NCBI RefSeq assembly: GCF_000023445.1
Contig: NC_012881.1
Coordinates: 563,501-627,500, forward strand
Length of the DNA: 64,000 nucleotides
Source: Maridesulfovibrio salexigens DSM 2638
GTDB lineage: Bacteria > Desulfobacterota > Desulfovibrionia > Desulfovibrionales > Desulfovibrionaceae
Direction of reading: 5' to 3'
The notes under the pieces were generated by a model. The model saw only the letters and a program-made list of their open reading frames with translations, was not told the origin of the DNA and did no database searches. Both the position numbers and the translations under genes were made by a program. This document shows positions 8,250 to 26,613 of this stretch, one piece after another (the stretch's first letter is position 1; each line of letters opens with the position of its first letter).

Positions 8250-9410
8250 CTACCAGTCGCTGAGCTTTCCCATTTCCGAAAGCGGTAGGGAAGATCCGAA
8301 ATCGTATTTTCCGGGTTTTTCATGGCGAGTGAGTTCGTTTGCTGCAAGTTCCCGTAATTCTTTTTCAATAGTTGCGTACTCAACGCTATCTGCGGGGACA
8401 ATAAAGGCTTTTAACCTTTCCCCTTCTTCTGGGCGCATCATCCTTACTGCGCATTCACGGACGTGCGGATTATTTTTGAAAGCAGCTTCCACACGTGCGG
8501 GGTAAACATTGATTCCCCCGACTTGGACGGCTTTATCTGACCGTTTAAGGGGCTTAAATTTATTGCCCTGCCATTCAAGATTATCTTGCAGGGTGTACAG
8601 CTGTTTTTCCCCTTCTGTCGAGGTCCTCTCGATTGTGGAATCCCCGGTCTGTTTCCAGTGTCCCAGCAAAGTGTACATGCCAGATGGGTCATGGCGGAAT
8701 CCCACTCCTCCGGTCTCGGATGATCCGTAGACCTCAGTCATGCGGTCCAGTCCCTGTGCTTGCAGGCTGTTGATGGTTTCTGCGGGACATGGTCCGGTAG
8801 AGGTCACTCCGTAGACGTTTTCCGGGAATCGGCAATTAAGTTTTTCAAGTTTTTTCCAAAGCAGGGGGAAAGCGATGATCAGGTCACCGGGGAGCATTGT
8901 TTTAATCTGCTCTGTTCCGGGCAGTGCGGCCCTGTACTCAATTGGAATATCGAGAGCTTTGGGCAGCAGGATAGAGAAAAGAAATCCGTATATATGGTGA
9001 CGGGGAACAAAGCTGACCACCCGTTTGCGTTCGTTAAAGAGCGCAGCAAGTGAATGGATTTCCTGCTCAAGATCAGAATAGCTGGAAACGGCAGGAACAG
9101 GAGTTCCGGTGCTGCCGGAGGTGAAAAATGTCAGTTGCTGCGGTCTGCCGTTAGTCTGCTTAAAAATCAGCTCAGCCATTTGAGCAATACTGCGTTTTGT
9201 CAGTTTGTTAGAATTAATGGCGAACTGGGTTCCGATTCGTTCAATAATTTTTTCCGGTTCCTGAATATTCTTTGAGTCGGGGATGAAATTATCGGCAAGG
9301 GAGTTTTCCTGACAATGGGTCAGCTTCTGGTTGTAATCCATTTCCGCAAGAAGGGCTGAGGAAATGATCTCCCTGATATCATGGGCATTCAGCTTCAGCT
9401 TGGTAGACAT
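8250..9410 (-). CDS. Short AMP-dependent acyl/aryl ligase (ANL family)
   Basis: Adenylating enzyme that would activate a carboxylic acid starter as acyl-AMP and load it onto CoA or a carrier protein. The P-loop TSGSTGTP is at residues 97-104, YGSSETGG near 228, and the C-terminal catalytic lysine motif EMGKLSD is at the end. At 386 residues it is shorter than the usual 500 or more, yet both ends of the fold are present, so it is a compact form of the kind seen in aryl polyene clusters and not a fragment. It is the last gene of the operon, 2 bases after the chain-length-factor-like gene. Substrate unknown: an aryl starter would fit an aryl polyene, but no ammonia lyase gene is present to make one. 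Confidence 0.85.
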   Translation of the reverse strand: MSTKLKLNAHDIREIISSALLAEMDYNQKLTHCQENSLADNFIPDSKNIQEPEKIIERIGTQFAINSNKLTKRSIAQMAELIFKQTNGRPQQLTFFTSGSTGTPVPAVSSYSDLEQEIHSLAALFNERKRVVSFVPRHHIYGFLFSILLPKALDIPIEYRAALPGTEQIKTMLPGDLIIAFPLLWKKLEKLNCRFPENVYGVTSTGPCPAETINSLQAQGLDRMTEVYGSSETGGVGFRHDPSGMYTLLGHWKQTGDSTIERTSTEGEKQLYTLQDNLEWQGNKFKPLKRSDKAVQVGGINVYPARVEAAFKNNPHVRECAVRMMRPEEGERLKAFIVPADSVEYATIEKELRELAANELTRHEKPGKYDFGSSLPLSEMGKLSDW

Positions 9411-9412
9411 GA

Positions 9413-10297
9413 TCAGTCCATCGCTTTTATGGAAATAAGCCCGAAATTTTTTCCGGCCTGTTCAATACAGCTGCTGTCACTTGGCTGTTTAGCAGCGGCA
9501 ACTAGAGCAGGGCCAGCAGCGCAGATCATATCCGTCTGCTGCGCGGCAGTTGCAGTAATGCCGAGTTCAGTCAGTCTGCGCAGTGATCTGGCAGCGCAAA
9601 AGTTGTGCTCTGGCAGTTCTGCCTGCTGCAATTCTTGAGAGGAAAGGGTTTCAAATTCCAGCGCGCCGTATTGTGCGCTTTCAGCGTCTTCAGCAGGACC
9701 GAGTAGAAAAAAACAGGCCCCTTCACTAAGCGGAATCAGATCCTCCGCAACTCCCTTTCTTTCAAGTAAACGGCGGGTGTTGGTTTCCAGAAGGGCGGTT
9801 TTTTCATCCACCATACCAAGAAGCAACTTTTTCGCTCTGCCTTCGCTCAGCCAGCATCCGGCAGTCTGCAATGCCGCCAGCAAAGGGCCGTGTAACTGGC
9901 AGATGGTGGTGTACGGCTTGGGATTATTCAGGAAAAGAGACATGGTTGCCGCTGGGATATTGTGCACTGAATGGGAAAAAGACAGCGGTGAAGCACAGCC
10001 TGCACCGTGATCAATGATGGAGTCCAGAAATTCAAAAACAGTTTGCGAAGGGCCGTATCCAGTGCTGATGACTATTCCCATGTCTTCGGGCAGTGGGATC
10101 TCGGTTTTCAGGTCTTCCTGTACCGTTCCGGCTGCATCGTGTAAGGCGCGGCATCCGGCGAGCATTGTCATGCGGGTAAAGTGGTCAACTCTGCGCAAAC
10201 GGCGCGGTGCAAAATATGAATTGAGATCGGAAGTATCTACTGTTCCAGCACCTTCAGGCAGTGCTGTTCCGATTCCGTGTAAGGCAAGGCGGATCAT
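9413..10297 (-). CDS. Short ketosynthase-like protein, candidate chain-length factor
   Basis: 294 residues resembling only the N-terminal half of a beta-ketoacyl synthase. The nucleophile region reads TTICQLHGP, so a cysteine sits where TACSSG normally does but the surrounding motif is lost. The histidine motifs of the C-terminal half (HGTGT, GHTLGAAGA) are absent because that half is missing. Proteins of this shape (Ketoacyl-synt_2 type, from memory) occur beside ketosynthases in aryl polyene clusters, where they act as the partner subunit. It overlaps the complete ketosynthase gene upstream by 4 bp, which implies coupled, stoichiometric synthesis. A role as a non-catalytic partner is inference. 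Confidence 0.75.
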   Translation of the reverse strand: MIRLALHGIGTALPEGAGTVDTSDLNSYFAPRRLRRVDHFTRMTMLAGCRALHDAAGTVQEDLKTEIPLPEDMGIVISTGYGPSQTVFEFLDSIIDHGAGCASPLSFSHSVHNIPAATMSLFLNNPKPYTTICQLHGPLLAALQTAGCWLSEGRAKKLLLGMVDEKTALLETNTRRLLERKGVAEDLIPLSEGACFFLLGPAEDAESAQYGALEFETLSSQELQQAELPEHNFCAARSLRRLTELGITATAAQQTDMICAAGPALVAAAKQPSDSSCIEQAGKNFGLISIKAMD

Positions 10298-11484
10298 GCT
10301 GCCCCCTTTTTGAAAACAAGGGCGGAGTTGTTGCCGCCGAAGGCCAGTGAATCGCTGAGGGCGTATTCGGCTGTGATTTCCATGCGCTTGGTAACAGGGA
10401 TTGCAGGCGATTCCGCAACGGCTTCACTGAATCCACTGGTGGGCATGAGCAAACCGTTTTGCAGAGACATGACCGACATCACCGCTTCTATGGCTCCGGC
10501 TGCACCCAAGGTGTGTCCGGTAAAACCTTTGGTTCCGGTAAATGGGATGCCGGGGAAAATTTCGCTGATGACCTGGCCTTCAACGCGATCATTGTTCTCG
10601 GTTCCGGTACCGTGAACATTAATGAATCCGATTTCGCGGGCATTGATTCCGCTGCGTTCAAGAGCATCGTTAATCGCCTGTTTCAGTCCGGTCCCTTCTG
10701 GATGCGGTGCAGTCAGATGGTAGGCATCACAGCAGGTGCCGTAACCCATTACTTCGGCAATGGAATCGAGCCCCAGCTCCTGTTTTGCCTCTTCGCTTGC
10801 AAGAATAAGAACTGCCGCGCCTTCACCGAGGTTCAAACCCTGCCTGTCCTTGTCAAAGGGACGGCATTTTTCAGTACTGGTGATCATCAGCCGGGAGAAT
10901 CCGGTATAGGAAATTCCGCTCAGCGCGTCTGCACCCCCGGCAATAACCAGATCACACAGCCCCTGTCTGATCCATGAAGCAGCAATACCGATGGCGTCGG
11001 TGCCGGAAGAGCAGGCGTTGGTCACTGTTTGAACCGGACCGTTTAAACTGTAGTTCTCAGCCAGAGCCGTAGCAGGATTGCAATGGATATAGCTTTCGAT
11101 AACTTCAAGATCAGACTCGTTGCCTTCGCGCCATTGCTGGTAGAATGATTTGAAGTTGAGCGAAGCTCCGGTTGATGAACCGATGCAGGATCCTACTTTC
11201 AGGCCGGACAGTTTTTCTGTATTTAGCGCGGCTTGGGTCAGAGCTTCATCCACAGCAGGAAAAAGCAGGTGCATGGTTTCGGTCAGTGCGGGAGTCCGGT
11301 CCTGTTTTTCCAGCCATTCCTGCGGCACCGCAAATACAGGCGAGTGCATGGGCTGGTCGTAGGAAAAATCGGGTTCAAAAGTCGGCTGGACATCTCCGTT
11401 CAGCATGGTTTCTAAACATGTACGGGGGTCTTTTCCGGCGGCACAGATGCAGCCGCAAGCACAAATGCTGACGGGACGGTCCAT
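10294..11484 (-). CDS. Beta-ketoacyl-ACP synthase (complete, active-site triad present)
   Basis: Condenses malonyl-ACP with a growing chain. The catalytic residues are all visible: cysteine in NACSSGTD, histidine in NVHGTGTEN, and lysine plus histidine in GTKGFTGHTLG. Length (396) is normal for a FabF-type enzyme. It lies between a carrier protein gene (3-bp gap) and the short partner ketosynthase gene (4-bp overlap), so the likely working unit is ACP, this enzyme and the partner. One of three complete ketosynthases in the operon, suggesting distinct initiation and elongation tasks. Confidence 0.92.
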   Translation of the reverse strand: MDRPVSICACGCICAAGKDPRTCLETMLNGDVQPTFEPDFSYDQPMHSPVFAVPQEWLEKQDRTPALTETMHLLFPAVDEALTQAALNTEKLSGLKVGSCIGSSTGASLNFKSFYQQWREGNESDLEVIESYIHCNPATALAENYSLNGPVQTVTNACSSGTDAIGIAASWIRQGLCDLVIAGGADALSGISYTGFSRLMITSTEKCRPFDKDRQGLNLGEGAAVLILASEEAKQELGLDSIAEVMGYGTCCDAYHLTAPHPEGTGLKQAINDALERSGINAREIGFINVHGTGTENNDRVEGQVISEIFPGIPFTGTKGFTGHTLGAAGAIEAVMSVMSLQNGLLMPTSGFSEAVAESPAIPVTKRMEITAEYALSDSLAFGGNNSALVFKKGAA

Positions 11485-11487
11485 GAA

Positions 11488-11733
11488 TTAGGCCTGTCTT
11501 TCCTTGATGAAATCAACAAGACTGTTCACGGACTGGAAGGCAGTCTTGCCCTCTTCCATGTTCTTGATTTCCACATTGAAATTTTTCTGAACCAGAACCA
11601 CGATTTCAACCGCGTCCAGTGAATCAAGTCCCAGCCCCTCGCCGAACAGGGGGGCGTCATCTTCAATCTCGTCCACGGTTACGTCGACAAGATTCAGTTC
11701 ATCAATAAGCAGTTCTTTTAGTTTAGTATGCAA
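11488..11733 (-). CDS. Acyl carrier protein (second of the operon)
   Basis: Carrier for the growing chain. The phosphopantetheine serine is in LGLDSLDAVE, and the acidic, helical character is typical. Two starts are possible. A GTG at 11766 overlaps the upstream acyltransferase gene and has no ribosome site. A TTG at 11733 has GAGG five bases upstream and gives an 81-residue protein of normal carrier length, so it is preferred. Directly followed by a ketosynthase gene. Confidence 0.85.
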   Translation of the reverse strand: MHTKLKELLIDELNLVDVTVDEIEDDAPLFGEGLGLDSLDAVEIVVLVQKNFNVEIKNMEEGKTAFQSVNSLVDFIKERQA

Positions 11734-11756
11734 TTTTACCTCGTTATCAATTTTTG

Positions 11757-12695
11757 TCAGTTCCACAGATTATAAAAATTGTAGAACTGGTATGGATTGT
11801 CCTGACAATATTTTTCCAGTTCAGTGGAAAATTTCTGGGCATAGGGAATAAATGCCTCAGCTCCGCGCACTTCCCCTTTACCTGTGTCCGCAGGTACGTA
11901 AATAACTTTTGCTACCCGGAAGAGTCCTTCCCCGGCTTTGTTGCGGCTGGAAAAAACTATAGCTATAGGCGTATCAGTTGTCGCTGCAATTTTGAACGGG
12001 GTTATCGGCAGTTCAATTTTTCCGCCCAGAAAATCAACCTGAACATTATGTCTGCTCTCACTCATGGTCCTGTCTCCGTTGATACAGAGTACAGAATTAT
12101 CACGCAGGGCAGAGAGCATTTCCAGAGTGCCGCCCATGGGGGCAGCGGGGTTGATTACAGTGATTTCCTCGACTTTACTTTCACTTCCTTGGCCGTTTCC
12201 GCCGGAGACCTTCCATTTGAAGGAATGTTTGTCCACATCTCCGCGTTCCATGAGCATGACAACAGCCTTCGGTGCATCCAGAAAGCCGAGGTATGAAAAG
12301 CCCATCTGCCAGCAGCCCACATGACCGGTGAGCAGGATCAGCCGTTTATGTTCGGCGTAAAGTTCTTGCAGCTTATTTTTGTCTTCTCCGGAACCGCTGC
12401 CTTTAAAATCACCCAGAATGCGCAGCACAGCCCGGTCGACCAGCATTTTTCCGAAATTCCAGTAAAGCAGAAATGTATGGCGTAATTCGCTCAACCTGTT
12501 TTGCGGCTTGAACCTGCGGCGGATATATTCAGCAGGCCTTTTGCCTACTCCGGGCAGCAGAGTGTAAAAACCGACTACAAAAAACAGGAGGAAATATGCT
12601 CCCGGTCTGCCCAATATACGGATCAGTCCGTAAAAGATATGATGGAAAAATGCGGGGGCCAGACTTCTGCTGGACCATTTTTTGTCGCGATTCAT
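11757..12695 (-). CDS. LpxL/HtrB-like lysophospholipid acyltransferase
   Basis: Predicted inner-membrane acyltransferase of the lipid A late-acyltransferase family. A hydrophobic segment lies near residues 30-55. The family HX4(D/E) box appears as HVGCWQ near residue 124, with glutamine where the acidic residue is usual, and NGDRT follows near residue 208. The catalytic pair may therefore be altered. In an operon that builds an acyl chain it may transfer that chain to a lipid or glycerol backbone. A ribosome site is not obvious; the gene follows the glycosyltransferase gene by 15 bp. Confidence 0.82.
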   Translation of the reverse strand: MNRDKKWSSRSLAPAFFHHIFYGLIRILGRPGAYFLLFFVVGFYTLLPGVGKRPAEYIRRRFKPQNRLSELRHTFLLYWNFGKMLVDRAVLRILGDFKGSGSGEDKNKLQELYAEHKRLILLTGHVGCWQMGFSYLGFLDAPKAVVMLMERGDVDKHSFKWKVSGGNGQGSESKVEEITVINPAAPMGGTLEMLSALRDNSVLCINGDRTMSESRHNVQVDFLGGKIELPITPFKIAATTDTPIAIVFSSRNKAGEGLFRVAKVIYVPADTGKGEVRGAEAFIPYAQKFSTELEKYCQDNPYQFYNFYNLWN

Positions 12696-12710
12696 AAGGC
12701 CAGCCCCGAT

Positions 12711-13865
12711 CTACTGCGGTTTCATATCTAAAAACCGTTTAATGGTAAACGCCATAATGTAGATCGTAATGCCGATAATTGCTGCGAATGACGGCCCTAA
12801 AACCAGTGAACCCAAGACCCATTCATAGAAGCGATCCAGTGCTTCGTAGCCTAGTGTCTGCAATGATATTTCGGTCAGGAACTGGTTGTAGCGCATATAG
12901 TGCCCGACCTCGATACACAGGGCCGGAACCAGCGGCGGAATGCAGAGCTGGCTTACGGCAAGTCCGGTAATCTTGCTAAGCCTGAAAAATCCGCAAAGAA
13001 GAAGGATCGCAATTGAGTGCATGGCTATGAGCGGCAAGGTGCCCAGCAGCATACCCATGGCCCCGGCAATTGCCAGATTAAGCGGTGTCTCATCTTTGGA
13101 GAGCAGGATGCGCAGTGAACGCAGGGGGTGGATGGGGGTTATTTTCCCCTCTTCATCCTTGTCGTACTGGCGGTGGGGCACAGGCATAAACGAACGCATG
13201 GTCAGCTTTGTATTCAAAAGTGAAATGCGTACATTATCCTTGATGGTATCAAAATGCGAAACCCGTTCGTCCGGTGAAGGGTAGTGCACTTCAATGGGCA
13301 GGTCTTTCAGCTCGTATCCGGCCCATGCTGATTTTACCAGAATCTCTACCTCAAAGGCGTAGCGGGTTTCAGAAGTTTTTATCACGGAGAAAATTTCCAG
13401 CGGGTAGGCGCGGAATCCGCTTTGCACATCACTGAGTTTTGATCCGGTCTGAACCCTCAGCCAGAAATTGGAAAAGCTGCGTCCGAACTTGGAGGCTCCA
13501 GGCACATTCTGCCCTTCGAAATTCCTGCTGCCAACGAAAATAGCTTCAGGGCTTTGCTCGATTGCTTCCAGAAAAATCGGGAGATCTTCAGGGAAATGTT
13601 GTCCATCGGCATCAATGGTGATTATGTGGGTCTTGCCCAACTCACGAGCTTTGTCCGCGGCGGTAAGGATAGCCTGACCTTTGCCGAGATTTTCCTTGTG
13701 GCTGACCACAGTAAGTTCAAGGTCGCTGATTTTATCAGAACCGCCGTCAGTGCTGCCGTCATCAATAATCAGCACTTCACCGTAGTTCAGAGCTCGTCTG
13801 GCAACATCGCGTAAAGTTGCACCGTGGTTATATACGGGGATAACGATTAGCGGCTTAACCTGCAT
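12711..13865 (-). CDS. GT2 glycosyltransferase fused to a DUF2062 membrane domain
   Basis: The N-terminal domain is of the dolichol-phosphate-mannose-synthase type: VIPVYNHG near residue 8, DDGSTD near 37, DADGQH near 84. The C-terminal third has several hydrophobic segments typical of the DUF2062 domain. It probably transfers a sugar to the lipid product or its carrier at the inner membrane. The ATG at 13865 puts the start right before the GT2 fold and overlaps the upstream gene by 11 bp. An earlier in-frame ATG at 13916 (with a TTG just before it) is possible, but neither has a good ribosome site. Similar proteins occur in aryl polyene clusters. Confidence 0.85.
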   Translation of the reverse strand: MQVKPLIVIPVYNHGATLRDVARRALNYGEVLIIDDGSTDGGSDKISDLELTVVSHKENLGKGQAILTAADKARELGKTHIITIDADGQHFPEDLPIFLEAIEQSPEAIFVGSRNFEGQNVPGASKFGRSFSNFWLRVQTGSKLSDVQSGFRAYPLEIFSVIKTSETRYAFEVEILVKSAWAGYELKDLPIEVHYPSPDERVSHFDTIKDNVRISLLNTKLTMRSFMPVPHRQYDKDEEGKITPIHPLRSLRILLSKDETPLNLAIAGAMGMLLGTLPLIAMHSIAILLLCGFFRLSKITGLAVSQLCIPPLVPALCIEVGHYMRYNQFLTEISLQTLGYEALDRFYEWVLGSLVLGPSFAAIIGITIYIMAFTIKRFLDMKPQ

Positions 13866-15249
13866 AAGCGGAATCTGCGGCTGACTTAGTAGATGTTTTA
13901 TTTCCGGGCTGGTCATCAAATTTTATCAACTGGTCCCAGAGAATCCCCCGGAATCCAAATTTTTTCATAATGTTAATGCGTTGCTGGCCTTCGTCAGGCG
14001 GGAATAGTCGATCCCTGCGTTTCTTGAATCCTTCGGTCAGGGTCGCATTCATCTCATCTTTATCGAGCCGGGGGGAGAAGTAATAAAAAGGTTCAAGCAG
14101 CGATTGGTTGGGGCGGATTAAACCCTCTTTAACGGCTCTTGTAAAGAGCGGGGTTCCCTCATGCAGCCGTATGCCTGAAAATGGAAAAACTACACAGTTA
14201 CGCAAAGAGTTAATGTTATCTATCCCTTCACGCACTGTATCCATAGTTTCATCAGGTCCGCCGAAAATTACAAAATGGGCGCATGGAATGTGTTGCTGCA
14301 CACATTTTTCGTTAAATTCCATGACCTCATCGAAAGTGAAGCTTTTCCGCAACCCTTTGAGAGTGGTGTCGCTGGCGGCGTCAGTTCCTACTTCCATGGC
14401 TTGCAGGCCGGAACGTTTTAGCAGGGCCAGTTCATCTTGTTCAATAGGACCGGGCTGGAAAAATCCGCACCAGCTGATTTTAATTTCGCGGCGTATAATT
14501 TCTTCGGCCATTTGCAGGTAATGACCTGCGCGGTCATTGAACACAGAGTCGGTAAAGAAAATATTATCCGCACCGCAATTGCAGAGCATTTCAAGCTCAT
14601 CTGCAATCTCATTTACCGGACGGACCCGCATTTTATGCCCTTCAAGGTGAGGATAAGTACAGTAGGAGCAGCAATGTTCGCAACCACGCTTGGTCTGCAC
14701 ATTAATAACCCCGCTTTCTTTGAGGTAATAGCGCAGTAGCTGCGGGTCCCAGTGCGGAACCTGTATTTCGTGGCCGGGAATTCCTTTTTCCTTGCCGTAA
14801 ATATGTCTTGTCTTTTTACCCTGTTCCAGCTGTGCAATAAGCTCGACCATTTTGCGCTCACCCTCGCCGACAATACCGTAGTCCGCCCCGGTGAAATCAA
14901 GGATTTCCTCCGGCAGCAGGGAGAAACCTGCGCCCCCGGCAATGACCGGAATTTTGGCTTCTTTCAGTACGTCCACAATGTTTTTTGCTTTTTGGATGAA
15001 CTTGTTGGTGTGGGAGGTGAAGGAGTCTACGTTATCCACATTGCGGATTGATATTCCGGCGTAATCCGGTTTTGCCTCAGCAAGCGCAGCCCGCAGGAGA
15101 TCAAGGGAGTTGCCCGCCGCAAGCATGTCATATTGGATTACTTCGTGTCCGGCATCATGCAAGGCACCTGCAATAACCGACATGCCGATGGGGTAAATCG
15201 GGTACGGTTCTACATTGGTGTTGCTTGAAATGAGAAAAACAATGGGCAT
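13855..15249 (-). CDS. B12-binding radical SAM enzyme of lipid biosynthesis type
   Basis: Residues 1-140 form a cobalamin-binding-like domain (YPIGMSVIAGAL, PVIAGGAGFSLLPEE, GEGERKMVEL). The radical SAM core has the cluster motif CX3CX2C at C190, C194 and C197, next to YP and HLEG. Such enzymes often methylate or rearrange unactivated carbons. From memory, close relatives are named lipid biosynthesis B12-binding/radical SAM proteins and are linked to ladderane gene sets; this needs a search. The protein lies mid-operon, 7 bp after the thioesterase gene. It has no counterpart in the standard aryl polyene cluster and is one of the key unusual enzymes here. Confidence 0.88.
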   Translation of the reverse strand: MPIVFLISSNTNVEPYPIYPIGMSVIAGALHDAGHEVIQYDMLAAGNSLDLLRAALAEAKPDYAGISIRNVDNVDSFTSHTNKFIQKAKNIVDVLKEAKIPVIAGGAGFSLLPEEILDFTGADYGIVGEGERKMVELIAQLEQGKKTRHIYGKEKGIPGHEIQVPHWDPQLLRYYLKESGVINVQTKRGCEHCCSYCTYPHLEGHKMRVRPVNEIADELEMLCNCGADNIFFTDSVFNDRAGHYLQMAEEIIRREIKISWCGFFQPGPIEQDELALLKRSGLQAMEVGTDAASDTTLKGLRKSFTFDEVMEFNEKCVQQHIPCAHFVIFGGPDETMDTVREGIDNINSLRNCVVFPFSGIRLHEGTPLFTRAVKEGLIRPNQSLLEPFYYFSPRLDKDEMNATLTEGFKKRRDRLFPPDEGQQRINIMKKFGFRGILWDQLIKFDDQPGNKTSTKSAADSAYAG

Positions 15250-15256
15250 GGTGCGT

Positions 15257-15736
15257 TTAGAAAGTCCTGTCTATGGGATTAAGAGTGCCATTCTTCCATT
15301 TCTCGCAGAGCTCGGCAAAGAAGTCCGGTTGGAACATCATCAGTTCATCGTTTTGGACGAAGAGCTGGACAGTGCAGCCGGTGGTCGCTTTTTCTCCGGC
15401 AGCATCGCGGATGATGAATTCGTAATTCATGCGTGCGGCCTCGGTCCAGTGCAGCAGGGTTTCAATACTGAAAGTTTCCCCGAAACGGAGCGGTTTGATG
15501 TAATCCACCTGCATTTTTTTGATCGGCGCGGCTACTTTGTAACGGTAAAAATCCATATACCCAACACCGTACAAATCACCGAGTGCAGTGCGTCCGTCTT
15601 CAAAATAACTGGAGTAGCGCCCGTGCCAGACAATATTCATGGGGTCCACTTCTTCAAAACGGACTTTGCGTTTCACAATATGGCGCAATGGTTCAGGCGC
15701 GCCTTCAATTTTCGGAAAATATGATTTGCGTGCCAT
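15257..15736 (-). CDS. Acyl-CoA/ACP thioesterase, 4HBT hot-dog family
   Basis: Hydrolyses a thioester to release or edit chains. The 4HBT signature is EEVDPMNIVWHGRYSSYFEDGR, with the catalytic aspartate in VDPMN. The start at 15736 has GGAGG upstream and overlaps the stop of the dehydratase gene by one base (TAATG), a sign of translational coupling. An upstream in-frame start at 15805 would add 23 residues that do not match the family and is rejected. Confidence 0.88.
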   Translation of the reverse strand: MARKSYFPKIEGAPEPLRHIVKRKVRFEEVDPMNIVWHGRYSSYFEDGRTALGDLYGVGYMDFYRYKVAAPIKKMQVDYIKPLRFGETFSIETLLHWTEAARMNYEFIIRDAAGEKATTGCTVQLFVQNDELMMFQPDFFAELCEKWKNGTLNPIDRTF

Positions 15737-19033: not shown

Positions 19034-19666
19034 TTACTCTTTCAGGAAAATATCCTGATCCAGTTTTTGATTTAACAGCACGTTGCTAAAAATTATTTTT
19101 GTGTAATCACCACTCGGTTCATGCAGTTCGATAGACTCAAGGTGAGTCTCATCGGGAGCAAAAAAGATGCGGATCAGATTTAAAAAATGTTTCGTTTTGC
19201 TCGATTTCGGAGTCAATTCCATCACTGCCGGGGAATAGTTGGTAACTTTGATTGAATAAAGGGATTGCAACCATGGGATATCCATGGTTGTCCAAGCCAG
19301 AATCTGTTCCGAAATTATAGCCATTTCCGGTGAGGTTTCGGTGTTGAATTGAGTTGATTCTTTGCTTGCCCCGTCCCATTTCAAGCCTTTCTGACCTTTC
19401 AGCAGGAAGCCGGATACAAATGGAGCAGTGTATTCCCAGCGTAAATTATTCGGGCGGGCAAAACAGAATTTACCCTTGGCTTCCATTACTTCTGCGAAAA
19501 GAGTGATATGGCTTTGCTGGGTAAAATCGCTGCTGATGGATTTTATGGATTGCGAACGGGTTTGCAGTTCCTTTAGGAAATCAGACTGCCTGTCTGCAAT
19601 TGCGTTGCTTGCTGAAATGACCAGAAGCAGAAAAGTGAGCAGAATTGTTTTTTTTACAATTGCCAT
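19034..19666 (-). CDS. LolA-like periplasmic carrier
   Basis: Signal peptide (KKTILLTFLLLVISASNAIA) followed by an outer-membrane-lipoprotein-carrier-like domain. FTQQSHITLF and the LRWEYTAPF block are typical of LolA-like proteins in lipid export clusters. It probably shuttles the finished lipid from the MMPL pump across the periplasm. It overlaps the dehydratase gene by 13 bp. A GAGAG stretch about 10 bases upstream may serve as ribosome site. Confidence 0.85.
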   Translation of the reverse strand: MAIVKKTILLTFLLLVISASNAIADRQSDFLKELQTRSQSIKSISSDFTQQSHITLFAEVMEAKGKFCFARPNNLRWEYTAPFVSGFLLKGQKGLKWDGASKESTQFNTETSPEMAIISEQILAWTTMDIPWLQSLYSIKVTNYSPAVMELTPKSSKTKHFLNLIRIFFAPDETHLESIELHEPSGDYTKIIFSNVLLNQKLDQDIFLKE

Positions 19667-20148
19667 GAGGATGCACTCTCACCGGTTTTTGCCTGTGTAA
19701 ACAGTTCTGCAATAGATTCGTCCTGCGGCACAAAGAGCTTAATTTTGCCCTCGGCTAAAGTTCTACCTTCACAGCTGATAGTCCCTTCTACTACTGCGAA
19801 TCCGTCAAAGTCACCTACAGTCTGAACGCTGATCAGCAATTCGTTACTGGTAAATTTTTCGGCCTTTTGGGGATGAATCTGGAATTTCTGCACTCCGACA
19901 AGATAACCTTCCGGCACTGGCTGACCGAGTGATTTAAGACGGTAACCACACACTGCGGCGTATGTCTGGGCCACCAGTTCTATATAAAAAGGTGCCAAAA
20001 CATTGCCTTCTTTTCCTTTGGCTATGCTCTTTGTGGAAAGGTCTGCCAGCGCTGTTCCTGCCCCTTCTTCGACAGTAAGCACACTGTCCAAGAGCAGCAT
20101 CTGCCCGCGATGGGGCAGCAGTTTTTCAGCCTGCATGGGAAGATTCAT
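19654..20148 (-). CDS. ApeP-like hot-dog dehydratase
   Basis: 164 residues. The opening block LLPHRGQMLLLDSV and FYIELVAQTYAA match the ApeP-like 3-hydroxyacyl-ACP dehydratase group. Together with the ApeI-like enzyme it gives two dehydratases, as in aryl polyene pathways, where the pair makes the conjugated double bonds. It lies 14 bp after the SPASM radical SAM gene and overlaps the LolA-like gene. Confidence 0.85.
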   Translation of the reverse strand: MNLPMQAEKLLPHRGQMLLLDSVLTVEEGAGTALADLSTKSIAKGKEGNVLAPFYIELVAQTYAAVCGYRLKSLGQPVPEGYLVGVQKFQIHPQKAEKFTSNELLISVQTVGDFDGFAVVEGTISCEGRTLAEGKIKLFVPQDESIAELFTQAKTGESASSWQL

Positions 20149-20162
20149 TAAAAACTCCGAGA

Positions 20163-21194
20163 TTAATTGCGCCAGCAGAGCGGGTCGGATGAGAGATAGT
20201 CACCGTTCAGGTGATGGGCCATGCCACGGCAGCCGTAACATTCTGCGCTTAAATCGCATGTCTTGCATGGTCCGGTAATGGTCTGGCGGATGTTGCGCAG
20301 ATTATTGAATACGTCGCTCTGCGAAATAATATTTTCAAGTGTGTCAAACCGCAGGTTGCCTGCGGAAATATCCACGCCCGGGCAGGGAATAACTTCCCCG
20401 GTGGTGGTTATGGTGCAGGAATAAAAATGCCGTTTGCAGGAAAATGCAGCAACAGGTGGTTTCGGCTCCCATTCTATTCCGAATTCTTCACGGTCAATGT
20501 GTGAAAGCTCATCGAATAATTCCCCGATCTGCTCAGGATTGAGAGCCAGCTCCATGTGATCCTTGGCCCTTCCCTGATCGGTAATGGTTTCAAAGTAGGG
20601 AATTATTTTACGGGTGCGCAGCCAGCGCCACATTTCCGGGATTTCTGCATAGTTCTGTCGGCAGATGATGGTCTGGGCACCGATGGGGATATCACCTTTG
20701 CTGTATCCGGCTTCAAGGAGATTGTTGAGGCCTTGGCGAATGGCTTTGTGGGCGTCTTTTTTACCGGCCAGCATATCCTGAATCTGCGGGTCAAGGCTGT
20801 TGAATTTAATCACCGGCTGTACTCCCATGGAATACAGTTCAGATGCTATTTCAGGGGTGATTCTGGTTCCGTTGCTGAACAATTCAATTTCCAGACCGAG
20901 TTCATGAATATAACGGATCACATCCATAATGCGGGGGTAGAGCATAGGCTCTCCCCCGCCAAGGATAATTATCTTACGCGCGCCGAGGTCCCGGCACTGA
21001 TCCACCGCATCGGTAATCTCTTCGAAATCCAGCTCATTATTGAGCTTTTCTCCGGATGAGGCATAGCAGTAGATACAGCGCAGGTCACAAACCCTGCTCA
21101 GTTCAAGCTCTGCTGTGAGCAATTGCTTGTTTTGGAGGGTATGTTCAATTTCAGCCGTGGTAAATGGGCTTCCCCAGCAGCGGTTTGAATTCAT
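20163..21194 (-). CDS. Radical SAM protein with SPASM domain
   Basis: The radical SAM motif CX3CX2C is at C36, C40 and C43 (VCDLRCIYC), followed by the glycine-rich ILGGGEP. The C-terminal SPASM region supplies extra cluster cysteines (FSCKRHFYSC, IPCPG, GPCKTCDLSAECYGC, PLCW). SPASM enzymes usually oxidise or cross-link peptides or modify small molecules. Here the context is lipid biosynthesis, so a chain modification is possible. It is the second radical SAM enzyme in the operon and is not part of the standard aryl polyene set. The ribosome site is weak; the spacing to the upstream lipoprotein gene is 16 bp. Confidence 0.85.
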   Translation of the reverse strand: MNSNRCWGSPFTTAEIEHTLQNKQLLTAELELSRVCDLRCIYCYASSGEKLNNELDFEEITDAVDQCRDLGARKIIILGGGEPMLYPRIMDVIRYIHELGLEIELFSNGTRITPEIASELYSMGVQPVIKFNSLDPQIQDMLAGKKDAHKAIRQGLNNLLEAGYSKGDIPIGAQTIICRQNYAEIPEMWRWLRTRKIIPYFETITDQGRAKDHMELALNPEQIGELFDELSHIDREEFGIEWEPKPPVAAFSCKRHFYSCTITTTGEVIPCPGVDISAGNLRFDTLENIISQSDVFNNLRNIRQTITGPCKTCDLSAECYGCRGMAHHLNGDYLSSDPLCWRN

Positions 21195-21210
21195 GTTTCC
21201 GATATTCCGT

Positions 21211-21609
21211 TTAGTTCAGACGACTAAGTTCGAGGTTAATGGAGTTGGCAAGGTTTTTAATCCAGGCATTGTAGTTGCTGTGGATCATGTTGCCTTTATG
21301 TTTCAGGTTAGTACTGTCTTTGTAATTAATACTGTAGTTCTCAGGGGTGTAGGTGATATCTACGACGGCCTGATGGGAACGGAGGTTCAGGGTTGCAACC
21401 AGATGTCCGGGAGCAACATCACTCATCTGCCAGCCACGGTCGTAGCCACCTCTGATAATGGCTTTTTTTACTTCGTCCATTGAGTGGTGCTTCTCGCTGG
21501 TGTACGCGATCGGAGCCAGTTCAATGTTCTGGATAGGAGCGGTTCTGCATCCGCCGAGAAAAAGTGCGCAGGCAACAAGTACAAAAGCAACGATACGGAG
21601 ATTCTTCAT
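21211..21609 (-). CDS. Small lipoprotein of unknown function
   Basis: 132 residues with a lipoprotein signal (LFLGGC, cysteine at residue 21). The mature part has a conserved-looking core (IIRGGYDRGW and VDITYTPENYSINY) ending in a helical segment. It is inside the lipid operon between the acyltransferase and SPASM genes, so a role in product handling at the envelope is plausible but unproven. Confidence 0.75.
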   Translation of the reverse strand: MKNLRIVAFVLVACALFLGGCRTAPIQNIELAPIAYTSEKHHSMDEVKKAIIRGGYDRGWQMSDVAPGHLVATLNLRSHQAVVDITYTPENYSINYKDSTNLKHKGNMIHSNYNAWIKNLANSINLELSRLN

Positions 21610-21653
21610 CTGTAGTTTCCTCGTTTTGAAAGTTAAATTTGTGAAAAATGCTG

Positions 21654-22406
21654 TTACGCTTCCTGATTCATTCCCTTAATGTAATCAACCATAGTTGTTT
21701 TAACCACTCGGCGCAATTCAATATGCGGATTCTGCATGTTCTTGAATTGTTCCGGGTAGATGGGGGGAAGTATTCTAGTACGAACTTTTGCAGGACATAT
21801 TAACATGTGTCCACGGGGGAGCATATTATAAGTCCCGGTAATGCACAGAGGTACAATGGGCAGCCCTGTCTGCATTGCAATATGAAAAGGACCGGAATGG
21901 AAGCGGTTCAGGTTGCCGTCTTTGCTGCGGGTTCCTTCAGGGAAAAACATGAGAGAACTTTTTTGCTCCACTGCTTTTTCCGCCTGTTCAATGATTGTAT
22001 CCAGATCATCTTTTTCCACATTAATGTAGCCCGCAAGTTTCATATAAAATCCGTAAAATGGTATTTTAAAGGGCCAGTTGCGCACTGCCATGCAAATGTT
22101 GCGTTGTGGCTGCAAGGAGACCAGATAGGGGTCAAAGAAAGATTCGTGGTTGGCAATGATGATGCATGGCTCGGGGAGTTTTCGTTGTTCCGGCCACTTG
22201 ATATCAATGAACAAGGATATCAGTTTTGAACTGGTCCAGCCGTAGTACCAGATCATTTTGCGCAGGGTTTCCGGTTTTTCCCATTTCAGGATGCGGGTAA
22301 AGAACAGGTAGCAGAGCGGCGAGAGAATGACCCCGGTCAGGGTCCAGAGGATGATGCTAAGGTATATACCGGTGTTAATCCAGATGAGTTTAAGAAGTCT
22401 GGGCAT
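21654..22406 (-). CDS. PlsC-type 1-acylglycerol-3-phosphate acyltransferase family protein
   Basis: Contains the HX4D box (NHESFFDPY) and FPEGTRS, the two hallmark acyltransferase motifs, plus an N-terminal hydrophobic segment. 250 residues is normal. It would esterify an acyl chain to a glycerol-phosphate-like acceptor at the inner membrane. It is the first gene after an intrinsic terminator located at the end of the carrier protein gene, so its expression may depend on read-through. Confidence 0.9.
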   Translation of the reverse strand: MPRLLKLIWINTGIYLSIILWTLTGVILSPLCYLFFTRILKWEKPETLRKMIWYYGWTSSKLISLFIDIKWPEQRKLPEPCIIIANHESFFDPYLVSLQPQRNICMAVRNWPFKIPFYGFYMKLAGYINVEKDDLDTIIEQAEKAVEQKSSLMFFPEGTRSKDGNLNRFHSGPFHIAMQTGLPIVPLCITGTYNMLPRGHMLICPAKVRTRILPPIYPEQFKNMQNPHIELRRVVKTTMVDYIKGMNQEA

Positions 22407-22425
22407 CGGACAATAAGGGAAGTGG

Positions 22426-22450
22426 AAAAAGCCGCTTGTATTAAGCGGCT
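22426..22450 (-). terminator. Intrinsic terminator/attenuator at the first carrier protein stop codon
   Basis: On the minus strand AGCCGCTT, a 5-base loop, AAGCGGCT, then TTTT. The stop codon of the carrier protein gene lies within the structure. The operon continues 20 bases beyond, so this may lower expression of the genes that follow. Confidence 0.65.
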
Positions 22451-22695
22451 TCGTCTTTTTTGCTCAGGATGAACTTATGCAGGTCACCGAGAGTACGGAT
22501 AGCCTTGAAGGCTTCGTCTTTCTTGATTTTGATCCCGAATTCCTGCTCCAGAACGATGACCATATCCACAGCATCAAGGCTGTCGAGATCAAGGTCATCC
22601 TTGAAGACTGCTTCGGGGACCATTTCATCAAGCTCCAGCTCGAATTCTTCGGCAAGCGCAGAGTTGATTCTTTTTATGAGTTCTTCATCTGTCAT
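22441..22695 (-). CDS. Acyl carrier protein (first of the operon)
   Basis: 84 residues. The phosphopantetheine attachment site is LDLDSLDAVD. The start ATG overlaps the stop of the ketosynthase gene (TAATG), with GAGGAG as ribosome site inside that gene. It pairs naturally with the ketosynthase directly upstream. An intrinsic terminator at its stop codon suggests this protein and the genes before it are made in larger amount than the later genes. Confidence 0.92.
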   Translation of the reverse strand: MTDEELIKRINSALAEEFELELDEMVPEAVFKDDLDLDSLDAVDMVIVLEQEFGIKIKKDEAFKAIRTLGDLHKFILSKKDEAA

Positions 22696-23921
22696 TATGA
22701 TCTCCTCAAAACCAGCGATGTATTTATACCGCCAAGGGCGAAATTATTTTTCAGCGCATATGTAATTGGTCTTTTCTGCAAATGCAAGGCGTTGTTTATT
22801 GCAGAACATTCCTCGGATGGATTCGTGAGATTTGCTGTGGGAATTATTGTACTTTCCTGCATCATGCGTACTGTTGCGATGGTTTCTATGGCTCCACTGG
22901 CAGCCATAGTATGCCCAAGATGTCCTTTTAAACTGCTGACCGGGGGAGTAGTGCCGAACAGGTTTGCCACAGCCTGTGCTTCGGAAGCGTCTCCCTGCAA
23001 GGTTCCGGTGGCATGGGCGTTCACATAGTCAATTTCAGATTCAGCAATTCCGGCATCTTTCAAAGCGTCTTTCATGCAGAGGTTGATGGCATCAGCACTG
23101 GGGGAAGCCATGTTGCTGCTGTCGCAAAGGGAGGAAAAACCTGTGATTTCAGCAAGAATTTCAGCCCCGCGTTCTCTGGCATGTTCATAGCTTTCCAGCA
23201 GGAGTATGCCCGCTCCTTCGGAACAGACAATGCCGTCCCGGTCGGCATCAAATGGCCGAGATGCACTGGCGGGATCGTCTGCACCGGAAGTGGAGGCCGC
23301 TTCGATAATATCGAAAGTGCCCACGGTCAGGGGATGTAATTCATCTGTTCCGCCGCAGAGCATCGCATCCTGTTTGCCGGAAGCAATGGCTTCTGCAGCC
23401 AGTCCGATGTTCTGACATCCGGTGGAACAGGCAGCCGAAGCTGCAATAACCCGTCCGCTGATTCCAAGAAACTGAGCAAGGTTGGCGGCGGCGCTATGGT
23501 TCATAATCTTGAAAAATTCAGTACTGCGGATTGCCTCAAGGGAATTTTCAGGAAGATAGAGCTTGAAAAATTGTTCAAGGGCCTGCGAACTACCTGTTGT
23601 GGAACCTACGGAAAGTCCGGTCCGGCCTCCGGTCAAAGTGTCTGTGTCCAGTCCCGCCTGTTCAATGGCTTCAAGAGCAGCCAGCGCAGCGAAAATAGAA
23701 AGATTGGACATTGTTCGGCGAGCTTTGCGGGGAATAGCCTTGGCGTTAACTTCCGGGACCCGTCCGGCAATGCGCGGACGCAATCCTTTTACGTGCTCAA
23801 GTTCTTCCATATGGCTGATGCCGGAGCGACCTTCAACAAGACCGTTCCAAAGAGCTTCCACTCCGCTGCCCAGTGGAGAAATTGCGCCCATTCCGGTGAT
23901 AACTACGCGCTGTAAATGCAT
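22695..23921 (-). CDS. Beta-ketoacyl-ACP synthase (complete)
   Basis: 408 residues, FabF type. The active-site residues are the cysteine in SAACSTGC, the histidine in NAHATGTLQGD, and lysine plus histidine in SLKGHLGHTMAASGA. GAGGA precedes the ATG. It overlaps the flavoprotein gene upstream by 19 bp and the carrier protein gene by one base. Presumably it elongates chains carried by that protein. Confidence 0.92.
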   Translation of the reverse strand: MHLQRVVITGMGAISPLGSGVEALWNGLVEGRSGISHMEELEHVKGLRPRIAGRVPEVNAKAIPRKARRTMSNLSIFAALAALEAIEQAGLDTDTLTGGRTGLSVGSTTGSSQALEQFFKLYLPENSLEAIRSTEFFKIMNHSAAANLAQFLGISGRVIAASAACSTGCQNIGLAAEAIASGKQDAMLCGGTDELHPLTVGTFDIIEAASTSGADDPASASRPFDADRDGIVCSEGAGILLLESYEHARERGAEILAEITGFSSLCDSSNMASPSADAINLCMKDALKDAGIAESEIDYVNAHATGTLQGDASEAQAVANLFGTTPPVSSLKGHLGHTMAASGAIETIATVRMMQESTIIPTANLTNPSEECSAINNALHLQKRPITYALKNNFALGGINTSLVLRRS

Positions 23922-25399
23922 TTCAGTTCCTCGTGAATCTTTTCATGTCCGTATATGAAACCGCAGGTCAGATAGGCGGAAACCACCGCACCCATGACTC
24001 CGGGGGCGATAATGGATTGTCCGGCCAGCAGCAGCCCTTTTATTTTGGTGGCCGGCAGGGGATTGTACTGAGAAATAGTATGAGCCGCTCCGTACATGCT
24101 GCCGTATGGTGACTGGCAGTAATCGCGTAAGCTCAGCGGGGTTGCCGCATCAATAAATTCAACCTGTCCGTTTAATTCCGGGCAGCGTGCATATACCTGC
24201 TGCGCAAATTTAGCCATAAGTTCGGCTTTGAAAGCAAGGTAGTCCTGCGGTCTGTTGCGTAGGCTTGAGTCCTGCCACTTGCTGAATTTATCAAAACTGT
24301 AGGGCATGATGGCGGTAACGCTCTGCTTGCCGTCCCGTCCGAGGGTTTGTCCGGCGGAAAGGAATATGGCGTTATCAGACATCCCGGTCCTGCCGGAAAG
24401 GACTTCGCTGTAATCTGATTCCGGCCAGAGGTAGATATTTCGGCCTTGCAGTGCTTCCACCGGAGTTTCGGCTATCCCGAAAAGAATCAGTGCGGATACG
24501 GTTTCCTGCAATTCACTGATCCTACGTTTAAATACCGGACGGAACACACCGTCTTCAACGCAGCTGAGCATGGCCGCGGGATGAGCGGACCAGATGCAGA
24601 TTTCGCCCTGTAATTCGTTCCCGTCATCCAGCAGCAATCCCGTGAAATTTTTGTCTGCGTCATGGTTGATGCGTACTGCTTTCTCTCCGCAGAAAATCTC
24701 TACCCCGTGCTCCTTGAGATGTTTCTGGTAAGCGTCTACGAGAGCTTTGCCGCCGCCATCAATGGTTTGTGATGACCGGAAATATGATCCGGCTACAAGG
24801 GCGTGAGTGGAGAGCATGGCCTGTTCCGGGGGGGTGCCGTATAGCAGTGAGTGGCAGCAGAGCAGGTCCTTGAGATCCTGATTGTCAGTGATGGAATCTA
24901 GGTACTCAAGCAGGGATTCTGTCTCGTCATGGGCAAGGGAATCCAGACTGAAATCCAGATCAAAATTCAGGAAAGCGGATGAGTCGAAAATTGTCCTGAT
25001 CCGTTTCAGATATGTATCAATGGCAGTTTTTTCAGAAGGGAAAGCCTGTTCTAAAGTCTGGCGGACCTGTTCATAGCCATAGGGCAGGCAGATCTGGCTC
25101 TTCTTTTTTTCAAAGCGGAAGCAGTCGCAGCCGCCCTCATTGAAAGGGATTTTGACCAGATCATCGTTGATACCCAGATGTTTGAAATAAGTATCGAGCG
25201 GATCGCCGTCACCCATCCCGCCGATGAGGTGGATGCCGGTTTCGAAATGAACTCCTTTCCTGCTGAAGCCGCGTACTGTCGGGCCGGGCAGGGGAAAGGA
25301 TTCCACCAGTGCGACCTTATATCCCTGTTTAGCCAGCAGCAGGGCTGAGGTCATGCCCGAAATACCTGCTCCGACAACTATGTGGTTGTAAGCAGTCAT
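23903..25399 (-). CDS. Phytoene desaturase/CrtISO-like FAD-dependent oxidoreductase
   Basis: 498 residues. The N-terminal dinucleotide-binding fold is GAGISGMTSALLLAKQGYKVALVE, and the C-terminal FAD segment is LLLAGQSIIAPGVMGAVVSAYLTCG. Such flavoproteins desaturate, saturate or isomerise polyene chains. Its place between two ketosynthase genes (TGATG overlap upstream, 19-bp overlap downstream) ties it to the pathway. It is not a usual aryl polyene component, whereas desaturase-like genes have been noted in proposed ladderane gene sets (from memory). The substrate is likely an unsaturated acyl chain (inference). Confidence 0.88.
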   Translation of the reverse strand: MTAYNHIVVGAGISGMTSALLLAKQGYKVALVESFPLPGPTVRGFSRKGVHFETGIHLIGGMGDGDPLDTYFKHLGINDDLVKIPFNEGGCDCFRFEKKKSQICLPYGYEQVRQTLEQAFPSEKTAIDTYLKRIRTIFDSSAFLNFDLDFSLDSLAHDETESLLEYLDSITDNQDLKDLLCCHSLLYGTPPEQAMLSTHALVAGSYFRSSQTIDGGGKALVDAYQKHLKEHGVEIFCGEKAVRINHDADKNFTGLLLDDGNELQGEICIWSAHPAAMLSCVEDGVFRPVFKRRISELQETVSALILFGIAETPVEALQGRNIYLWPESDYSEVLSGRTGMSDNAIFLSAGQTLGRDGKQSVTAIMPYSFDKFSKWQDSSLRNRPQDYLAFKAELMAKFAQQVYARCPELNGQVEFIDAATPLSLRDYCQSPYGSMYGAAHTISQYNPLPATKIKGLLLAGQSIIAPGVMGAVVSAYLTCGFIYGHEKIHEELKCIYSA

Positions 25400-26613
25400 C
25401 AGAATTCAAGCACAAGGCAGGAGTTGGTGCCGCCGAATCCTGCGGAATTGAGCAGGGCTTTTTGCGGAGGGCGGCTGTCGGTTTCGGTGAGAATGTTCAG
25501 GCCGGAAGTCTCGTCATCGCCTTCGGTGAAATTTATGTTCGGCGCAGTGAATCCGTATCGGTTCATGAGAGTTGTATAAACAACCTGACTTGCACCGGAC
25601 ATCCAGAGTTCGTGTCCGGTCATGGATTTGGTTGAGGAAATGCGCGGGGAATTATCCCCGAAAAGTGTGTGGATGTTGGCTGCTTCAGCTCCATCTCCAG
25701 CCGGAGTGGAGGTGGCATGGGCGCAGATGTAATCGATATCTGCCGGAGTCAGTCCCGCTAGTTTGAGAGCCTTGGATCCTGCTCTTGCTAGGCCGTCTCT
25801 GCCGGGAACTGAAATATGTTCTCCGTCTGATGAAAAACCGTACCCGCTGACTACGCCGAGAATTTCTGCTCCGCGTTCCTTTGCCAGATCGTAGCGTTCA
25901 AGCACTATGGCTGCTGCGCCTCCGCTGGGAACAAGTCCGTCACGGTTCTTATCAAAGGGTCTGCTGGCCTGCGAGGGATTAGCTGTGTGATTGGAGAATG
26001 CACCTAGGCCGTCAAAGCTGCACATGGATTGCCAGTTCAGTTCCTGCGCGCCTCCGCAGATGATCCGTTCCTGCTGGCCTGTGGCTATAAGATTAAAGGC
26101 CTGACCCACTGCATGTCCGCCGCTGGAACAGGCTGAGCTGATGGTCCATGACGCCCCGCGGGTTTTGAAAAGTGTATTGAGGTTCATGGTTACACAGGAG
26201 GTCATGGAACGGAATACCGCGCCGCTGCCGATAAGTGAGGTCTCACCCCGTTCTTTGAGCAATTCTACCTGATCAAGGGCGGCAATACAGCTGGAATCAC
26301 AACCGAAAATTAGTCCGCTTTCATCGTTGTGCAGATCTTCTTCTGTGAGGCCGGAGAGCTCAAGGGCTTGTTTGGCGGCAGCGTAGGCCTGTACTGCAAA
26401 ATCGGGCATGGTTTTGCGTTGCTTGCGGGCCAGCCATTTTTTGGGTGCAAAATCTTTGATTACCCCTGTCAGCGGGCTTTCAAAGCCGAGCTTGATTCGT
26501 TCCTCATCCACCTCAATACCTGAATGCCCTTGCTTGAGGGCATCGGCAATGGTTTCAAGGTCTACACCCAGAACGGATATGGCTCCGATTCCTGTGATTG
26601 CCACTTTATACAA
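25399..26613 (-). CDS. Beta-ketoacyl-ACP synthase (complete), TTG start
   Basis: 404 residues. The active-site residues are SACSSGGH, HATSTPAGD, and STKSMTGHELWMSGA. In the second motif the usual GTGT/GTST is ATSTPAGD, a form common in ketosynthases of non-primary pathways. It begins with TTG, preceded by GGGAG at good spacing. It overlaps the flavoprotein gene by one base (TGATG). It is the first gene after a 139-bp gap from fabG, so a promoter may lie in that AT-rich gap, although none stands out. Confidence 0.9.
   Translation of the reverse strand: MYKVAITGIGAISVLGVDLETIADALKQGHSGIEVDEERIKLGFESPLTGVIKDFAPKKWLARKQRKTMPDFAVQAYAAAKQALELSGLTEEDLHNDESGLIFGCDSSCIAALDQVELLKERGETSLIGSGAVFRSMTSCVTMNLNTLFKTRGASWTISSACSSGGHAVGQAFNLIATGQQERIICGGAQELNWQSMCSFDGLGAFSNHTANPSQASRPFDKNRDGLVPSGGAAAIVLERYDLAKERGAEILGVVSGYGFSSDGEHISVPGRDGLARAGSKALKLAGLTPADIDYICAHATSTPAGDGAEAANIHTLFGDNSPRISSTKSMTGHELWMSGASQVVYTTLMNRYGFTAPNINFTEGDDETSGLNILTETDSRPPQKALLNSAGFGGTNSCLVLEF

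Follow-up and report, generated by a model that had tools for sequence, protein, structure and literature searches.

Introduction

Aryl-polyene (APE) gene clusters of Proteobacteria combine a ketosynthase (KS) and its inactive partner with a PRK09184-type acyl carrier protein (ACP), ApeI- and ApeP-like dehydratases, an AMP ligase, a thioesterase, a GT2 glycosyltransferase, acyltransferases, an MMPL protein, LolA and a DUF3261-like lipoprotein; an ammonia lyase is not part of every such cluster. These components are shared by an operon of Maridesulfovibrio salexigens DSM 2638 (Desulfobacterota, Desulfovibrionaceae), which lies on the minus strand of the window that we analyzed, a stretch of 64,000 nucleotides (assembly GCF_000023445.1, contig NC_012881.1, positions 563,501 to 627,500) to which all coordinates below refer. 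In contrast to APE clusters, the operon adds a B12-dependent type of radical S-adenosylmethionine (SAM) enzyme, a second radical SAM enzyme with a SPASM domain and a CrtI-type flavoprotein, it has no ammonia lyase, and its proteins mostly score under the cut-offs of the matching models. We propose, with a probability of about 60%, that this operon makes a modified conjugated-polyene lipid, possibly an aryl polyene, destined for the outer membrane.

Other described systems with a similar mix of genes have been considered in the context of ladderanes, the lipids of anaerobic ammonium-oxidizing (anammox) bacteria. Kuenenia supplied the proposed ladderane genes, which reportedly gave no ladderanes when expressed in Escherichia coli (PMC4790861). 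Of 34 candidates, only kuste2805, kuste3603 and kuste3605-3606 were inferred to have been gained at the origin of the anammox bacteria, in another study (PMC9387917). Related type II fatty acid synthase (FASII) gene sets occur in Desulfotalea and Geobacter, with no proven product, and no ladderanes were found in Desulfotalea despite these gene sets (PMC2649909). Clusters called “ladderane” by antiSMASH have been reported in metagenome-assembled genomes (MAGs) of Desulfobacterota, Omnitrophota and other groups, with no proven product (PMC9902471). The FASII and antiSMASH clusters, likened to our operon by their descriptions only, have a gene mix of the same kind and occur in the same phylum. 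The open-licence literature of PubMed Central, to which our search was confined, subscription journals lying outside it, showed no title on the operon itself among the matches listed.

Results

A run of 21 genes with an aryl-polyene-like core

The source genome is a single contig of 4,289,847 bases. A preliminary description of the window had listed 20 minus-strand genes, many of them overlapping and none more than 44 bp from the next, and all 20 open reading frames (ORFs) were confirmed between positions 8250 and 26613, the largest intergenic gap being 44 bp. That list was incomplete by one gene. A 21st ORF on the same strand (26753-27475), 139 bp upstream of the other 20, codes for a FabG-like beta-ketoacyl reductase (Pfam adh_short_C2, 214.6 bits), and a FabG-like gene likewise comes first in the loci L152, L154, L156 and L197 of relatives. 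With the longest starts assumed, neighboring genes overlap at 9 of the 20 junctions, and all 21 genes are presumably transcribed as one unit. Scans of the encoded proteins with Pfam and NCBIfam/TIGR profiles, scored against curated cut-offs, backed the functions previously assigned to the core (KSs and partner, ACPs, dehydratases, thioesterase, ligase, MMPL, LolA, acyltransferases, glycosyltransferase), as well as the two radical SAM enzymes and the phytoene-desaturase-like flavoprotein.

In an alignment of 14 relatives with KS1 to KS3, the Cys-His-His residues of ketosynthases are retained by the FabB-like KS1 (25399-26613; PRK07967, 342.6 bits, cut-off 630), the PRK09116-like KS2 (22695-23921; 396.4 bits, cut-off 470) and the PRK09185-type KS3 (10294-11484; PDB entry 6qsp_A, E of 9e-55). 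The short KS partner (9413-10297; Ketoacyl-synt_2, 34.6 bits) has lost the Cys and both His while KS1 to KS3 keep them, and is therefore chain-length-factor-like. Among the models that we associate with aryl polyenes, a single one is passed at its cut-off, by ACP2 (11488-11766): NF006617, or PRK09184, which we take to be the aryl-polyene-type ACP (74.8 bits, cut-off 70). ACP1 (22441-22695) matches PP-binding with 42.2 bits and PRK05350 with 68.1 bits (cut-off 65).

Further core genes encode an ApeP-like dehydratase (19654-20148; PDB entry 6qsr_B, E of 6e-6), a FabZ/ApeI-like dehydratase (15736-16122; FabA-like, 26.4 bits, cut-off 23), a 4HBT thioesterase (15257-15805; 4HBT_2, 47 bits) and, as the last gene, an AMP-dependent acyl/aryl ligase resembling 4-coumarate-CoA ligase (8250-9410). 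Two acyltransferases, of the PlsC type (21654-22406; Acyltransferase, 84.3 bits) and of the LpxL type (11757-12695; Lip_A_acyltrans, 32.9 bits), are accompanied by a GT2 glycosyltransferase with a C-terminal DUF2062 domain (12711-13919; Glycos_transf_2, 77.1 bits; DUF2062, 38.5 bits).

Flexirubin and dialkylresorcinol clusters contain a KASIII-type DarB and the DarA cyclase. No KASIII-type Pfam hit (E<=0.001) was obtained among the 21 proteins, DarA not having been searched for separately. Celluxanthenes were considered as products of the same kind, since they are aryl polyenes of anaerobes, and were set aside: they are made by a type I polyketide synthase (PMC12144888) and are thus of a different kind.

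Predicted export proteins

Next to the core, the operon encodes an MMPL/RND protein of HpnN-like type, a predicted lipid exporter (16641-19031; MMPL, 45.1 bits; HpnN, 107.1 bits, cut-off 751.85), and a LolA-like periplasmic carrier (19034-19666; LolA, 71.5 bits), which reaches 124.2 bits with the flexirubin-type LolA2 model (cut-off 125). Near both stands the gene of a 173-residue lipoprotein (16127-16648). The DUF3261 label given to it earlier gained indirect support: the operon protein alone had no family hit, and in an alignment of 20 sequences that includes it, DUF3261 matches eight and LolB matches five (E<=1). Its structure model (predicted local distance difference test [pLDDT] of 87.5) matches LolB (1iwm) with an E of 8e-6, a template modeling score of 0.53 and a root mean square deviation of 8.5, so that by its model the protein is predicted to have a LolB-like fold.

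A second lipoprotein, of 132 residues (21211-21609), carries an LGGC signal whose Cys21 is invariant in the aligned sequences. It had no Pfam hit, none was consistent across 15 aligned sequences, and its alpha/beta model (pLDDT of 88) had no PDB match with an E of 0.001 or less. Because the operon combines the MMPL, LolA-like and LolB-fold proteins with a glycosyltransferase and two acyltransferases, its product is probably a polar, exported lipid.

A B12-radical SAM enzyme and a CrtI-type flavoprotein within the operon

The cobalamin-binding radical SAM enzyme (13855-15249) matches TIGR04072, “rSAM_ladder_B12,” with 700 bits against a cut-off of 360. Its CxxxCxxC motif is invariant across 14 sequences, and the nearest solved relative by sequence is the tryptophan C2-methyltransferase 6wte (E of 1.5e-36). 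The closest homologues are those of “Desulfovibrio sp. UBA2564” (83% identity) and of two Pseudodesulfovibrio MAGs (54-55%). The TIGR04072 cut-off is passed in 63 of 297 genomes sampled from the phylum, 25 of 247 in the family and 10 of 17 in the genus, and by 19 of 294 genomes in the phylum that contains a Phycisphaerae MAG (L108) and the anammox bacteria. A plasmid origin of the gene was considered and rejected: the 81 plasmid records that match are all below 60% identity, with 22-26% among the matches listed. Many relatives (L036, L037, L044, L051, L057, L071 and others) have clustered B12-radical-SAM-like genes, two or three in number, along with extra KS genes, compared with one in the operon described here; the additional copies are 20-31% identical to the operon's.

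The CrtI/CrtD-type, phytoene-desaturase-like flavoprotein (23903-25399) matches Amino_oxidase with 68 bits and TIGR02733 with 96.2 bits (cut-off 549.7). Its gene and that of the B12-radical SAM enzyme sit within the overlapping gene run, and both are retained in all seven relatives within the genus whose loci were mapped in full (L152-L155, L197-L199). At an eighth locus, L032, the B12 gene is kept and the contig ends before the position of the flavoprotein gene; genome G479 lies outside the mapped set.

In the genus, the B12-radical SAM and glycosyltransferase genes occur in the identical 10 of 17 genomes, and the operon therefore seems to come and go as a whole. Gene order is kept in the genus and in Pseudodesulfovibrio, and partly so in loci of Desulfuromonadales, Nitrospirota, Omnitrophota and Lentisphaerota; order is thus conserved over several genera, far beyond chance. 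A recent horizontal import was considered and found no support, since the GC content of the operon and that at third codon positions (GC3) match those of the surroundings.

The SPASM radical SAM enzyme appears to be optional

The radical SAM/SPASM enzyme (20163-21194; Pfam Radical_SAM and SPASM), related to the kuste3343-type enzyme of anammox bacteria, is present in five of the ten operon-bearing genomes of the genus (G000, G451, G472, G479, G488). No match (E<=1e-20) was found genome-wide in the other five (G341, G383, G405, G426, G465), in which the remaining 20 operon genes are all present; in three such loci measured, 3 to 189 bp separate the open frames of the flanking genes. Because the SPASM gene is absent from half of the genomes while the other 20 genes stay, its product appears to be an optional step or module of the operon.

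Across the family, 13 of the 25 genomes with a TIGR04072 enzyme have a SPASM match, the identity reaching at least 55% in 11 of them. G397 and G445 have copies of 38-39% identity, and in G397 the gene (L200, 36-38% identity) is placed between those of the ligase and KS3, unlike in the operon described here. When ten operon proteins were concatenated for a tree of 21 rows, SPASM presence changed seven times on it; five of these changes are forced by well-supported branches, and they are no more clustered than with shuffled labels. Since, within the family, the SPASM tree is in broad agreement with that of the operon, ancestral presence followed by repeated loss would be the simplest reading; repeated transfer of the gene is a possible alternative. 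Of the 297 genomes sampled from the phylum, 16 have a SPASM homologue (E<=1e-60), and in 12 of these the TIGR04072 cut-off is passed as well (odds ratio 13.5, p of 3e-6, uncorrected for relatedness), and in 8 of the 16 the coordinates place the two genes within about 5 kb of each other.

The related anammox gene set is confined to a minority of the genomes examined

Anammox genomes were recognized by HZS_alpha. Of the 294 genomes, 44 had a match with an E of 1e-60 or less, and 14 of these, picked by hand, were tested; 12 gave a hit and 10 were kept, which are a part of all anammox genomes. G729 and G556 were excluded despite their hits (1300-aa frames), and G586 and G548 had none. A set of the kuste3335-3352 type was found in three of the ten (G625, G705, G795), two of which, G705 and G795, are close kin with near-identical SPASM genes; at L145, the locus of G625, the genes follow one another as in the published kuste3352-kuste3335 list. 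In these sets the SPASM enzyme is 49-51% identical to the operon's (51% in G625), and the adjoining gene encodes a TIGR04072 enzyme of 33-34% identity (34% in L145). L145 further shares with the operon FabG (43%), MMPL (31%), a glycosyltransferase (34%), a CrtI-type flavoprotein (20%, E of 1e-14), an ACP and KS genes. It differs by another gene order, a FlxY-like ligase and two SAM methylases (PMC4790861). Neither L145 nor L143 or L148 has a match (E<=1e-3) to the ApeP, LolA-like, LolB-fold, LpxL or AMP-ligase genes of the operon, and a PlsC-like match is found in L143 and L148 and not in L145. The ligase of L145 (7485-8807 of that locus), in the place of the kuste3344 “phenylacetyl-CoA ligase,” scores 422 bits with FlxY (cut-off 520). 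Because it is closest to FlxY, the flexirubin ligase, the kuste3335-3352-type set may itself be aryl-polyene-like.

The seven other anammox genomes are without the kuste3342/3343-type pair; three of them (G754, G785, G659) consist of one contig spanning nearly the whole genome and four are drafts. There was no SPASM hit in G690, G659 and G804, and those of the rest are at 28-31% identity. Their best TIGR04072-type hits reach 305-339 bits and represent a gene type common to all ten genomes. Equating this gene with kuste2803 was considered and rejected for the two loci checked: at L146 and L149, a B12-radical SAM gene of this type has no ketosynthase match nearby, and L203 has the kuste2802-2805 layout.

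Two tandem ketosynthase pairs are present in nine of the ten genomes, and one pair in the tenth (G804, a 2.3-Mb assembly). In the three genomes inspected (G625, G754, G785), the pairs lie in kuste3603-3608 and kuste2802-2805 layouts, whose radical SAM enzymes are 23-27% identical to the operon's. With TIGR04072, the G625 enzymes reach 87 and 77 bits; together with their G754 counterparts they fall into a clade separate from the operon enzyme. The radical SAM enzyme of the operon is thus not orthologous to the kuste3608- and kuste2803-type enzymes, the rest of the genome not having been searched for them. The CrtI-type flavoprotein of the operon is closer to its counterpart in the kuste3603-3608-type set (23-24% identity, E of 1e-26 to 1e-30) than to that of L145, which is the one point in favor of kinship with the widely kept anammox sets.

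In phylogenetic trees, the anammox copies fall into one clade with Desulfobacterota copies, both for the SPASM enzyme (8 rows, support 99/100) and for the B12 enzyme (7 rows, Shimodaira-Hasegawa-like approximate likelihood ratio test of 100); the operon's own two enzymes lie outside these clades. This grouping suggests lateral sharing of radical SAM genes between anammox bacteria and Desulfobacterota. To our knowledge, all anammox bacteria make ladderanes, and on that general knowledge the enzymes that the operon shares with some of them more likely mark a non-ladderane lipid. The distribution of the gene sets agrees with the gains inferred at the anammox origin in PMC9387917. The ladderane-like features noted in the preliminary description therefore hold at the level of genes but are not supported as a pointer to what the operon makes, the matching set having been found in three of ten anammox genomes.

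Flanking sequences and hairpins

Directly after the last gene, a terminator-like hairpin followed by six T (8195-8212, minus strand) was found as a consensus match only; the region holds 29 terminator-like sites, compared with a mean of 24.7 (standard deviation 5.4) in shuffled sequences. A hairpin of ten pairs, including one G-T pair (22429-22451), covers the end of the ACP1 gene and the gap before the PlsC-type gene; it has a plus-strand T run and may tune expression or RNA stability within the operon. About 35 bp upstream of the fabG-like start, a GC-rich hairpin with a T run on the operon's strand (27509-27525) is a candidate terminator of an upstream transcript or leader attenuator.

Downstream of the operon, a minus-strand ORF of 605 codons (6172-7989) has no Pfam match and a GC3 of 0.44, whereas 23 non-operon genes average 0.51. 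A search of 12 genomes of the genus found this gene in just two, its own included, and an empty chromosomal site could therefore not be defined by it. Elsewhere in the window, an aldehyde ferredoxin oxidoreductase gene adjoins a divergent gene for a sigma-54 activator (1360-5106), and HlyD-type and AcrB-type efflux genes lie near the operon on the opposite strand (31489-35885).

Discussion

A proposed route to a modified polyene lipid

The operon would resemble an aryl-polyene system in its working, yet it is not classed as one, its core having diverged. We infer every step of the following chemistry, and the product, from the encoded families. The AMP ligase would load a starter acid onto ACP2, and KS3 with its inactive short partner, a putative chain-length factor, would extend the chain by malonate units. 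Conjugated double bonds would be left by the FabG-like reductase together with the pair of hot-dog dehydratases, while KS1, KS2 and ACP1 might serve in priming or in making a second chain. The B12-radical SAM enzyme could form a carbon-carbon bond, either by transferring a methyl group or by closing a ring. Desaturation or isomerization of the chain could fall to the CrtI-type flavoprotein. The thioesterase, the two acyltransferases and the glycosyltransferase would build the chain into a polar lipid, to be moved across the periplasm by the MMPL protein, the LolA-like carrier and the LolB-fold lipoprotein. A modified, exported acyl lipid, as the preliminary description had suggested, is thus judged the most likely product. 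Its remark that such a product was not yet described for this group calls for care, as antiSMASH “ladderane” clusters and related gene sets have already been published, their product unproven.

Several observations weigh against our proposal. Four core proteins stay under the curated cut-offs of the models expected for them: the ApeP-like dehydratase (PF22817, 24.5 of 27 bits), the ApeI-like dehydratase (16.9 of 28.5 bits), KS3 (PRK09185, NF006618, 286.8 of 407 bits) and the ligase (4-coumarate ligase, TIGR02372, 293.5 of 334.7 bits). No aromatic ammonia lyase, as had been noted before, is encoded in the operon, nor is there a match to PF00221 anywhere in the genome, in a search that gave matches in 5 of 14 control genomes; this leaves an aryl head unproven. 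A late, decorating role of the optional SPASM enzyme would be a guess from its dispensability. Finally, we know of no product for any relative with this gene set.

Alternative products

The operon might instead provide polyunsaturated hydrocarbons or fatty acids for membrane fluidity, with neither an aryl head nor export to the outer membrane. This is the best placed of the alternatives, albeit one that we hold rather unlikely. C31:8 and C31:9 hydrocarbons occur in Desulfotalea, whose related sets have radical SAM as well as CrtI-like genes (PMC2649909), and the missing ammonia lyase fits such a product. However, the dedicated export set, the glycosyltransferase and the pair of acyltransferases speak for a polar lipid that leaves the inner membrane, and no ole or pfa gene is found among the 21 genes, the rest of the genome not having been searched for them.

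More speculatively, the two radical SAM enzymes may close carbocycles or cross-link chains on an ACP-bound polyene, to give a cyclized outer-membrane polyene lipid of a new class; the same chemistry would have been acquired laterally by some anammox bacteria and mistaken for ladderane synthesis. We regard this as a doubtful, if attractive, extension of our proposal.

It is improbable that the product is an ordinary aryl polyene and that the radical SAM and CrtI-type genes are idle or unrelated neighbors. The core alone could make a polyene and the SPASM gene is dispensable, but the genes of the B12-radical SAM enzyme and the flavoprotein are embedded in the overlapping run and are kept in seven of seven fully mapped relatives within the genus.

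Most improbable is a ladderane or other linearly fused cyclobutane lipid with rings closed on a polyene by the radical SAM enzymes: TIGR04072 membership, a SPASM enzyme about 50% identical to an anammox copy that adjoins a TIGR04072 enzyme in kuste3335-3352 order, and a CrtI-type flavoprotein akin to that of the kuste3603-3608-type set speak for it, but the matching anammox set is kept in few genomes, the widely kept KS-pair sets carry distant radical SAM enzymes, and both the lack of ladderanes in Desulfotalea and the few genes inferred as gained at the anammox origin (PMC2649909, PMC9387917) argue against it.

Significance

If the outer-membrane polyene lipid that we propose is indeed cyclized, culturable sulfate reducers would hold a new class of such lipids. 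Radical SAM enzymes of the kuste3335-3352 type occur in sulfate reducers, in an operon that is aryl-polyene-like, which makes an open question around the proposed ladderane genes testable. The natural presence and absence of the SPASM gene in close relatives offers a way to its function, as a comparison of the lipids of such pairs would show the role of the enzyme. It would also help to focus the search for true ladderane genes on the pair of sets that almost every anammox genome examined retains.

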